Origin: Oceanimonas smirnovii ATCC BAA-899
GTDB taxonomy: Bacteria > Pseudomonadota > Gammaproteobacteria > Enterobacterales > Aeromonadaceae
Direction of reading: 5' to 3'
Length of the DNA: 64,000 nucleotides
Assembly (NCBI RefSeq): GCF_000381965.1
Contig: NZ_KB908457.1
Coordinates: 1-64,000 of the forward strand
Within the stretch, counting starts at the first letter, position 1. Each line of letters starts with the position of its first letter. A program made the translations under genes and the position numbers. The notes beneath the pieces were generated by a model. It was not told the DNA's origin and searched no databases. It saw only the letters and a list, made by a program, of their open reading frames with translations. This document shows, piece after piece, positions 27,811-30,156 of the stretch.

Positions 27811-28155
27811 ATGTCCATTGCCATTTCCAGCCAAGTTATTGACATCACTCCCGCCATCCGTGAACGGATTGAGAGTCGTTTTGAAAAGCTGAACCGGCGT
27901 CAGATTGCATTGATCACACCGCATGTGATGATTCAGAAAGAAGGACTGAATTATCTGGTAGAAGCCAGTGCCGGCGTGCCGGGCGAAACCCTGTTTGCTC
28001 AGGCAGAAGATGAAAACCTGTATGCGGCTATCAACGATCTTGGTCACAAACTGGAACGTCAGCTAACCAAATACGCAGAGAAGCCGCTGGCCCAGCGTGC
28101 CAACGCCGGTCAGCCGGCAGCAGAAGCAGAAGCAGAAGCAGAAAGCGAGGAATAA
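27811..28155 (+). CDS. raiA: Ribosome-associated inhibitor RaiA (HPF/YfiA family)
   Basis: Binds the 30S mRNA channel in stationary phase or cold and blocks translation. It has 114 residues. The beta-alpha-beta-beta-beta-alpha core matches E. coli YfiA (ITPAIRERIESRFEKL, then DLGHKLERQLTKYAE). The acidic C-terminal tail is a run of Ala-Glu repeats encoded by four tandem GCAGAA units (28120-28143). It lies upstream of pheA as in E. coli, and a strong terminator separates the two. Confidence 0.94.
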   Translation: MSIAISSQVIDITPAIRERIESRFEKLNRRQIALITPHVMIQKEGLNYLVEASAGVPGETLFAQAEDENLYAAINDLGHKLERQLTKYAEKPLAQRANAGQPAAEAEAEAESEE

Positions 28156-28213
28156 CCGGGTTTTCCAGAAATCACTTGCCTCTGGCACCACTTTTCAGTA
28201 TGTATATATCAAC

Positions 28214-28243
28214 AGGCCTCCCTCCCACCGGGAGGCCTTTTTT
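28214..28243 (+). terminator. Terminator between raiA and pheA
   Basis: The stem AGGCCTCCC (28214-28222) and GGGAGGCCT (28230-28238) with T-run 28238-28243 could end raiA or act as an attenuator for pheA. No phenylalanine-rich leader peptide is visible upstream of it. Confidence 0.8.
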
Positions 28244-28278
28244 ATGTGTGCATGCCGGTGAGGAAGGAAGCCCTATTC

Positions 28279-30156
28279 ATGAAGTTGGACGACATTAGAA
28301 GCAAGATCACTAACCTGGACCGAGAGCTGCTGAACCTGCTGGCTCAACGCAAGGCCCTTAGCCTGGACGTGGCCCGCGCCAAGCTGGAAAATCCCCGCCC
28401 CATTCGCGATCAGGAGCGGGAGCAGGCGCTGCTGGTGAGGCTGGTGGAACAGGGTCGTCAGCTGGGGCTGGATGCTCACTTTGTTACCCGCATTTTTCAC
28501 ACCGTTATTGAAGATTCGGTACTGTCACAACAGGCACTGCTGCAGGACCTGCTCAACCCGCAGGACGAAGTGCCCGCTATCAGCGTGGCCTTTCTGGGGC
28601 TTAAGGGCTCCTATTCCAATATGGCGGCGCGCAAATATCTGTCGCGCTTTCAGGCCCCTCTGATAGAGCATAACTGCGAGACCTTTCAGCAGATATTTGA
28701 AACCGTGGAGTCAGGCCGGGCGCAATATGGCATTTTGCCGATAGAAAATACCAGCTCCGGTGCCATTAACGATGTGTTCGATTTAATGCAGCACACCAGT
28801 CTGTCGATTGTGGGTGAGCTGACCCAGCCTATAGAGCATTGTCTGCTGGTGGCCACCGACACCAGTGTGGAGCAAATCACCACGCTTTATACTCACTCTC
28901 AGCCTTACCAGCAGTGCTCCCAGTATTTAAGCCGGCTGGGCGAGCTGGAGGTGAAGTTCTGCGCGGCATCATCCAACGCCATGGAGCAGGTAGCCAGACT
29001 GAAGCGTGCGGACGTGGCAGCCCTGGGCAGTGCCGACGGCGGCGAGCTGCATGGTCTGACACCACTGGTGGAAGGCCTGGCCAACCAGAAGCAGAACATG
29101 ACCCGCTTTATTGTGGTGGCACGCAAACCCATTGAAGTCGCAGAGCAAATTCCGGCCAAAACCAGCTTTATCATGTCGACCGGCCAGCAAAGCGGTGCCC
29201 TGGTAGAAGCCCTGCTGGTGCTGCGCAACCACGGCATTACCATGACCCGGCTGGAGTCGCGCCCCATTATCGGCAATCCCTGGGAAGAGATGTTTTATGT
29301 GGATGTGGCTGCCAATGTAAATAGTGCCGATATGCAGGCTGCCATGAAAGAGCTGGGCCGCATCACTCGTTTTATCAAGGTGCTGGGCTGTTACCCCAGT
29401 GCCGAGGTGGCTCCCACTCGTATTCCTGCCCGCCTGCTGAACAAGAGCAAAAGCGCCGGCCAGAGCGACGAGCCGGTACGTTATAGCCGTCATTACAAGG
29501 CAAACAACACTCAGGTACAGATTGGTCCTTTTATGCTGGGCGACGACGAGCCGCTGCTGATTGCCGAGCTGGCCGGCTGGCCCGGTACCGAGCGGCTGGA
29601 TGAGCTGGCCCGCAGCATCAAGGAGCAGGGCGGCCAGGTGCTGGCGGTGGATTGCTTCAGTGATGTGAGTGCCGAGCAGGGTTTGAAGCGCCTGCAGCAG
29701 TTGCATGCCAGTGCCGACCGCTTTGATCTGGCAGCCATGACCAGGGTGACCAGTGCCGAACAGGTGCACAGAGCCGCTGAACAGGTGGATCTGCTGCTGC
29801 TGGATACCAGTGCCGCCGGCAATGAAGCATTGTTAAATGCCGCGGGCCGCTGTACCCGGCCCTTGCTACTGGAGCTGAGTGAAGAGCCCGGGCAAAGTTT
29901 ACGGTTGGCTCAGCATATTCTGCAGCAAGGCAACCAGCAGCTTGCTCTGCTGGATACGCAGGCCTTACCGCTGGCCCGCCTGCTGGAACTGAGCGGCCAG
30001 ACCCACCTGCCGCTGGTCAGCCGCTTAAACGGAGATGCCGCCACTCTGCCTCGCCTGGCAGAAGCGTTAAGCGCCACCGGTGTCAGTGGTTTTGCGCTGC
30101 CGGTAACCGGCAATGACCGGGCCCTGGAGCAGCTGGCCCAGAGTTTGTACCGGTAA
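28279..30156 (+). CDS. pheA: Bifunctional chorismate mutase / prephenate dehydratase with extra DAHP-synthase-like C-terminal domain
   Basis: Makes phenylpyruvate from chorismate. It has 625 residues against about 386 in E. coli. The AroQ chorismate mutase spans 1-90 (LDRELLNLLAQRKALSLDVA). Prephenate dehydratase spans about 105-285 (VAFLGLKGSYSN and the catalytic NMTRF). The ACT domain spans about 293-375 with the Phe-binding motifs GALV and ESRP intact, so feedback inhibition is likely. Residues about 400-625 are extra. By eye they align with class I DAHP synthase, from RYSRHYKANNTQVQIG to the final barrel strands, but the GPCS, KPRTS and DPSH motifs are missing. I use the ATG at 28279, with GAGGAAGGA upstream. 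The mutase and dehydratase calls are firm. The function of the C-terminal part is inference. Confidence 0.95.
   Translation: MKLDDIRSKITNLDRELLNLLAQRKALSLDVARAKLENPRPIRDQEREQALLVRLVEQGRQLGLDAHFVTRIFHTVIEDSVLSQQALLQDLLNPQDEVPAISVAFLGLKGSYSNMAARKYLSRFQAPLIEHNCETFQQIFETVESGRAQYGILPIENTSSGAINDVFDLMQHTSLSIVGELTQPIEHCLLVATDTSVEQITTLYTHSQPYQQCSQYLSRLGELEVKFCAASSNAMEQVARLKRADVAALGSADGGELHGLTPLVEGLANQKQNMTRFIVVARKPIEVAEQIPAKTSFIMSTGQQSGALVEALLVLRNHGITMTRLESRPIIGNPWEEMFYVDVAANVNSADMQAAMKELGRITRFIKVLGCYPSAEVAPTRIPARLLNKSKSAGQSDEPVRYSRHYKANNTQVQIGPFMLGDDEPLLIAELAGWPGTERLDELARSIKEQGGQVLAVDCFSDVSAEQGLKRLQQLHASADRFDLAAMTRVTSAEQVHRAAEQVDLLLLDTSAAGNEALLNAAGRCTRPLLLELSEEPGQSLRLAQHILQQGNQQLALLDTQALPLARLLELSGQTHLPLVSRLNGDAATLPRLAEALSATGVSGFALPVTGNDRALEQLAQSLYR

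Follow-up and report, generated by a model that had tools for sequence, protein, structure and literature searches.

The pheA gene of Oceanimonas smirnovii raises the question of why an otherwise normal PheA should carry, beyond its ACT domain, what looks like a DAHP synthase (DAHPS) deprived of its active site, as an original prediction made from this locus had proposed. Within the window (the whole 64,000-nucleotide stretch of DNA that we analysed), pheA occupies 28279..30156 on the + strand (ORF list, Pfam and NCBIfam), where 625 codons stand open from an ATG and end in a stop; the opposite strand (minus, frame 1) is interrupted by stops, its longest open piece being 266 aa. Our best overall explanation, to which we give a probability of roughly 0.6, is that this protein descends from a trifunctional enzyme whose DAHPS barrel is now a non-catalytic module kept by selection.

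The domain order of the protein is chorismate mutase (CM), prephenate dehydratase (PDT) and ACT, followed by ~224 additional residues in the same open frame, so that the predicted extra domain C-terminal of ACT is indeed there. The chorismate mutase domain (residues 6-85, 28294..28533, + strand; Pfam CM_2 E 1.3e-19) has all eight catalytic residues of the E. coli enzyme (R11, R28, K39, D48, R51, E52, S84 and Q88). It is followed by the prephenate dehydratase domain (residues 103-283, 28585..29127, +; Pfam PDT E 2.3e-51), which keeps the threonine of its TRF motif, and by the ACT core (residues 305-359, 29191..29355, +), whose Pfam match is below cut-off (E 0.02) and in which the GALV and ESRP motifs are both present; the expectation of intact PheA and ACT motifs is thus borne out. 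Against the NCBIfam equivalog for the P-protein, NF007910, the window PheA scores 571.2 bits (cut-off 577). Between the ACT and the extra domain lies a variable linker (residues ~381-401, 29419..29481, +) with a mean identity of 38%, versus 86-89% for the CM, PDT and ACT domains, across the members of the GTDB genus code that includes Oceanimonas, Zobellella and Oceanisphaera (hereafter the Oceanimonas genus code, sampled as 23 genomes).

Just upstream of pheA, as in E. coli, stands a raiA/HPF-type gene (27811..28155, +; TIGR00741 E 3.7e-21), and the interval between the two (28156-28278) contains a terminator-like hairpin with a T run at 28215-28237. A search for a Phe-leader attenuator upstream of pheA gave only a sub-threshold Rfam Phe_leader match in that interval (24.4 bits vs. 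a gathering score of 55), at the place where E. coli has pheL, and no Phe-rich leader peptide was seen there by eye.

The C-terminal domain (residues 402-625, 29482..30153, +) would be overlooked by Pfam alone, since DAHP_synth_1 matches residues 470-531 at E 0.18, under the Pfam cut-off. NCBIfam models for DAHPS match more clearly (PRK08673 at residues 400-559, E 6.8e-14; TIGR01361 at residues 401-559, E 5.4e-11), both at scores far under their curated cut-offs, and the higher NF009239 score of the protein includes its CM domain. In a PDB search, ten DAHPS or DAHPS-like chains were found at E 4.2e-10 to 7.5e-7, with the next, unrelated chains from E 0.25 up, and a profile comparison (hhalign) of 13 genus-code members with 12 standalone enzymes aligned 211 columns at 30% identity (99.5%, E 1.3e-22). 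The profile search of the C-terminal part thus recovers the predicted DAHPS similarity, chance resemblance is ruled out by the significance of both searches, and the segments named in the prediction follow DAHPS in the order given. Its class assignment stood in part: the Thermotoga-like half is right, and kinship with AroG/AroF (class I-alpha) is ruled out, as the significant PDB matches are class I-beta or alike and the NCBIfam matches are of the DAHP_synth_Bsub/PRK08673 types instead. Residues 402-625 are confirmed, at the level of sequence, as a class I-beta (Thermotoga/Bacillus-type) DAHPS domain.

To score its active site we used 12 positions in T. maritima numbering (C102, R126, K131, R133, R186, K207, R208, R237, D269, H272, E298 and D309), among which we take C102, H272, E298 and D309 to be the metal ligands and K131 to bind PEP. 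Standalone class I-beta enzymes have all 12 in 41/41 cases (21/21 and 20/20 in two sets); the window domain has none, metal ligands and K131 included, and the GPCS, KPRTSPYSFQG, KRG and DPSH(G) motifs are gone, as had been claimed. The 22 full-length genus-code rows keep 0-2 of the 12, and two loops, each carrying a site residue, are 5 and 10 residues shorter in the window than in an intact relative from the same family (G038). The loss is concentrated on the site: in the genus code 2% of the 12 site positions are kept vs. 37% of 55 other invariant positions, and in five other degenerate groups the corresponding fractions (site/other) are 0.10/0.49, 0.35/0.80, 0.08/0.49, 0.42/0.66 and 0.44/0.80. 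The degenerate groups also differ among themselves, such that Shewanella retains the CESGIRTF region and the Oceanimonas genus code does not. The window domain is apparently a dead DAHP synthase, and the prediction that a normal PheA has here been extended by a dead-looking DAHPS domain is supported as far as the 0/12 site residues can speak to it.

Such a domain need not be missed, because the genome holds three further AroF/G/H-like DAHPS genes (named by eye, class I-alpha) along with one KdsA-like gene, and no class II DAHPS match was found in it. Gene number does not predict decay in any clear way across two sets of genomes (41 and 24, among the matches listed), since genomes with whole-site fusions and genomes with degenerate fusions both keep other DAHPS-family genes.

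The domain is nonetheless free of internal stops in 23/23 members of the Oceanimonas genus code (including Oceanimonas baumannii, O. marisflavi, Oceanimonas sp. CHS3-5 and several Zobellella and Oceanisphaera species), which rules out an artefact of frame. The window domain is 77, 75 and 78% identical to three Oceanimonas rows and 45-56% identical to Zobellella/Oceanisphaera rows. In seven close pairs the dN/dS (omega) of the domain is 0.06-0.36, with all bootstrap intervals below 1 (highest upper end 0.57), and the pooled value is 0.161 vs. 0.065 for the catalytic part. Minimum spanning trees give omega values for domain, linker and core of 0.233, 0.379 and 0.066 in the genus code, and of 0.071, 0.182 and 0.024 in Shewanella. 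Constraint on the domain is moderate, because wider pair sets give median omega values of 0.435 (81 pairs) and 0.416 (121 pairs), with synonymous sites partly saturated, and it is the fastest-evolving structured part of PheA. Had the domain evolved free of selection, its 660 bases should have gathered some 150 stops (6.5 synonymous changes per site, a lower bound on tree length, multiplied by 660 bases and by the 3.56% of changes that are nonsense); none was seen. Judged by these substitution patterns, the domain is under purifying selection and is not a decaying tail. Separately, pheA is read as two overlapping frames of 328 and 370 aa in Oceanisphaera psychrotolerans (L123:1787-3684, also L014), with the break, real or an assembly error, lying upstream of the C-terminal domain; L014/L123 is left out of the 68-row table described next.

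We surveyed 394 genomes of the GTDB order Enterobacterales, 46 of which were searched again. Fused pheA occurs in the Oceanimonas genus code and in the sole genome (G038) of another genus of the same family (g3); in Agarivorans, Aliagarivorans, Alginatibacterium and a fourth genus, all of family f10; in part of Kangiellaceae (f8); and in rows of f11, f13, f15, f16, f21 and f6 g32. In the Shewanella genus code, pheA ORFs measure at least 643 aa in 29/29 genomes, the DAHPS domain having been read in 17. Among the rows listed, PheA is unfused in Aeromonas-like g2, Vibrio-like f22, Enterobacteriaceae f19 (which contains the rows nearest to E. coli PheA) and f9/f27, so the domain is dispensable in some settings. 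The whole DAHPS site is found in only 7/68 fused rows of the order (G038, G149, three Kangiellaceae and two f15), the other 61 having at most 8/12 site residues, with one poorly aligned row (L215) judged by eye; the rows come from best-match lists with many close relatives, and row counts are not event counts.

Several cases illustrate how fluid this distribution is at short range. One Kangiellaceae genus holds both whole (L040, L043) and degenerate (L049, L104) forms. Of three genomes of f6 g32 (G103, G417 and G432), one has a fused PheA with a degenerate domain, whereas in the other two the PheA ORF is only 390 or 406 aa long, so that the whole DAHPS domain was probably lost recently. The whole-site fusion of G149 (f16; row L030) sits on a long branch, and four other re-searched genomes of its genus code are without the domain, making lateral transfer possible. 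In another Kangiellaceae genome (G426:C79:18865-20164), the class II DAHPS matches are spread over three short frames, suggesting a broken or misassembled gene, and the fused DAHPS domain there is likewise degenerate.

Taken together, retention and distribution bear on the alternative that fares best against our preferred reading, namely that the barrel is a constrained relic, useless in itself and drifting towards loss, which must still fold lest an unfolded tail harm PheA. Its evolution at several times the rate of the catalytic part would fit such a relic, as would the absence of the whole domain from Aeromonas-like, Vibrio-like and Enterobacteriaceae rows and from two of the three f6 g32 genomes. 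We nevertheless hold this account unlikely, since the tail could be shed without any penalty in folding by a single stop or frameshift in the linker, yet 23/23 genus-code members keep it to its end, the long pheA ORFs persist in all 29 Shewanella-genus genomes, and none of the close pairs reaches an omega of 1.

Outside the order, no match spanning both halves was found among the matches listed for 369 genomes of the class and 299 of the phylum. A scan of named genomes gave 365 pattern matches, 162 of them confirmed, and the best 80 of the 162 comprise 60 fused rows and 20 standalone ones (GNQQ, the pattern used to select them, is disregarded when conservation in these rows is judged). Of these 60 fused rows, 39 are lower-gamma and degenerate, and 21 come from other phyla or MAGs (Planctomycetota, Myxococcota, Acidimicrobiia, Bacteroidetes, Caldithrix, Chloroflexi, Virgisporangium, Streptosporangiaceae and others). 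Within the best 80 of 162, the whole DAHPS site is present in 16/21 of the rows outside the lower-gamma set and absent from 5/21. Whole-site fusions (L132, L133, L136, L137, L139, L141, L144, L149, L160, L164, L170, L179, L182, L184 and L190) come from Planctomycetota, Acidimicrobiia, Bacteroidetes, Chloroflexi, Virgisporangium and other records, with Pfam domains obtained for six. A Pfam scan of ten outside fusions found CM_2, PDT and DAHP_synth_1 together in nine; ACT is listed by Pfam in three of the ten, the rest being called ACT-bearing from alignment to PheA. Some host names may be wrong, because many rows are MAGs, although two are named Virgisporangium strains.

The tenth scanned fusion, from a Caldithrix MAG (L153:2059-3777), has PDT, ACT and DAHPS only, without CM, and is apparently an independent fusion. 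Two rows from Pirellulaceae and Planctomycetaceae (L146 and L158) have a common altered site (7/12), with Cys and His kept and several Arg/Lys replaced, perhaps reflecting changed chemistry rather than decay. In L209 (G770:C25:62019-64117) and L202 (G768:C66:3241-6509), pheA is followed on its own strand by a class I-beta DAHPS gene, at ~0.25 and 1.4 kb; neighbours of this type, from other gammaproteobacteria, show a layout that could give rise to a fusion. Viral or plasmid-borne spread was considered and set aside, as two IMG/VR scans gave no relative and the only plasmid match was a weak one (Paenibacillus, 27%).

Phylogenies of the two halves bear on the order of events. In a tree of gammaproteobacterial DAHPS domains, 17 fused domains fall on one side of a branch (100/97) and 21 standalone enzymes on the other, and when other phyla are added 38/39 standalone rows group at 98/93, joined only by the Caldithrix fusion; the remaining standalone row (L155) falls outside the standalone group. 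A single clade of all 33 fused DAHPS rows, a set that includes the Caldithrix fusion, is ruled out (p-AU 0.032). These trees omit, as long branches, the most degenerate domains (the Oceanimonas genus code, Shewanella, f11, f13 and L103), and also L159, L171 and L183, so that the placement of the omitted degenerate lineages rests on the PheA part. The PheA-part tree separates 33 lower-gamma rows (23 fused and 10 unfused) together with 19 fused rows of other phyla from 17 unfused upper-gamma PheAs at 100/100, and E. coli PheA lies inside the fused-lineage group, within a 20-row set (11 unfused and 9 fused) at 100/98, in a tree whose bootstrap had not settled. In pairwise comparison, E. coli PheA gives 199-342 bits against the 19 other-phyla fused rows vs. 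141-182 bits against the 17 upper-gamma PheAs. When the fusion from a Bacteroidetes MAG was used as query, 26/32 sampled members of the order, unfused ones included, gave at least 308.9 bits over PheA, the other order members scoring lower or having no PheA among the matches listed, and no other PheA of Pseudomonadota, the phylum of Oceanimonas, exceeded 191.3 bits among the matches listed.

Fused DAHPS domains have lost their site repeatedly. Labelling rows with fewer than 12/12 site residues as dead on the PheA tree requires 12 changes against intact or unfused rows, 7 of them forced by well-supported branches, in a tree where the outgroup is not one side of a branch and row L215 stands on the wrong side. 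Among named rows, raiA directly precedes pheA in 13/13 of the genus code, 4/4 Agarivorans-type, 2/2 Ferrimonas/Paraferrimonas, 10/19 Shewanella and 0/20 from other phyla, and it was not found beside pheA in Kangiellaceae, f15 or G149 rows or in unfused rows L066-L068. Most simply, lower-gamma PheA would go back to a single trifunctional ancestor whose barrel died repeatedly and was lost several times, including in the E. coli line. That E. coli-type PheA started out fused is argued from the way in which fused DAHPS domains group and from the tree nesting, with unfused PheAs taken from gammaproteobacteria only. A fuller version, which we rate as slightly worse than an even bet, would have the lower-gamma P-protein, including that of E. 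coli, descend from a trifunctional CM-PDT-ACT-DAHPS enzyme common to Planctomycetota and other phyla, probably by lateral transfer; in gammaproteobacteria the barrel would have died several times, often surviving in the role of a regulatory scaffold, as in Oceanimonas, Shewanella and Agarivorans, with the site kept in few lineages and the barrel cut off in E. coli, Vibrio-like and Aeromonas-like lines.

Descent from a trifunctional enzyme with retention of a non-catalytic barrel would work as follows. The ancestor would have joined chorismate mutase, prephenate dehydratase, ACT and class I-beta DAHPS in one chain, uniting the first step of the aromatic pathway with the first two steps of the Phe branch, so that one Phe-sensing ACT domain would have been placed to shut off both ends of the pathway. 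In the Oceanimonas/Zobellella/Oceanisphaera line the barrel would then have lost its metal, PEP and phosphate ligands, with three other DAHP synthases doing the chemistry, and what remains may hold PheA subunits together and pass on Phe binding at the ACT domain. We infer that the whole-site relatives are active, that the ancestor was too, and that the fold is still a barrel. The proposed scaffold or allosteric role (oligomerisation and transmission of Phe binding) is suggested by the barrel still following ACT in the chain after loss of the site, and we hold it tentatively, at not quite even odds. The retained function may also differ between lineages, because degenerate lineages keep different loops.

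A different use for the barrel would be docking, with the pseudo-barrel binding a separate active DAHPS and so linking the entry enzyme and the Phe branch in trans. Chorismate mutase and DAHPS are brought together in trans in mycobacteria, DAHPS barrels self-associate, and the genome offers three other DAHPS genes as candidate partners. It has, however, no class I-beta DAHPS partner gene elsewhere, and the three candidates are class I-alpha by eye, a type whose contacts differ from those of class I-beta; on this analysis docking would be somewhat less probable than even the relic account. The weakest alternative, in which the barrel, once emptied, would have become a further allosteric sensor for some effector such as Phe, Tyr, prephenate or a different metabolite, has a precedent in TIM-barrel pseudoenzymes that turn into sensors and could draw on C69, F70 and Y234 (domain alignment), which are among the positions invariant in 13/13 genus rows, yet we consider it improbable, as no pocket motif is common to the degenerate lineages. 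What all six degenerate groups do keep in full (G121, G198, P203, G228, N229, P265 and G294) looks structural, being all Gly, Pro or Asn. The data support reading the domain as a putative pseudoenzyme, non-catalytic and kept by selection.

Among known systems, the E. coli P-protein PheA (NCBIfam NF007910) is a textbook case of feedback regulation and is routinely targeted for the production of aromatic compounds. It shares 220/386 identical residues with the window PheA and, unlike it, ends after ACT (386 aa) without a barrel. In Thermotoga maritima DAHPS, an ACT-like regulatory domain precedes the barrel, as ACT does in the window PheA. Class I-beta DAHPS enzymes with an N-terminal regulatory or CM domain (PDB 1rzm, 3nvt and 5j6f) have a homologous barrel, whereas the window domain has lost all 12 site residues and has a whole CM-PDT-ACT enzyme as its partner. 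The fusions from Planctomycetota, Virgisporangium, Chloroflexi and Bacteroidetes have the same CM-PDT-ACT-DAHPS order as the window, and in 19/20 other-phyla rows (the exception being Caldithrix L153) the PheA part scores higher with the window PheA than with upper-gamma PheA; unlike the window, with 0/12, 16/21 of such fusions have the whole site. Our literature search, in which most subscription journals were outside scope, found no description of the trifunctional enzyme or of whole-site forms and no account of the domain as a pseudoenzyme, and the intact-site fusions in gammaproteobacteria and in Planctomycetota, Actinobacteria and others are apparently new.

The closest precedent is Shewanella oneidensis, in which aroQ-pheA was described as fused to an aroAI-beta 'pseudogene' and called "bizarre" (PMC1173090, 2005). 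The architecture and the kind of degenerate domain are the same as in Oceanimonas, and the genus-code profile aligns with that of 17 Shewanella sequences over 233 columns (hhalign 99.7%, E 7e-26). It was treated there as a single-species pseudogene whose origin was unknown; the Oceanimonas domain, by contrast, is open and selected, occurs in several genera and has intact relatives that suggest its origin. 'Pseudogene' is a poor word for a domain under purifying selection, and neither a broken frame nor an absence of selection is what we find here (23/23 stop-free, omega below 1). The single S. oneidensis case was known, and the wider kind, the origin and the repeated fate appear to be new. If E. 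coli PheA does derive by truncation from a trifunctional enzyme, with the DAHPS domain turned into a dead partner in many relatives, the family offers a natural series from whole site through partly and fully lost site to absent domain, along which one could ask how an enzyme domain becomes a regulatory part. Such a descent would account for the 2005 observation as well, and it draws attention to trifunctional enzymes whose single ACT domain may govern a pathway at two of its ends.
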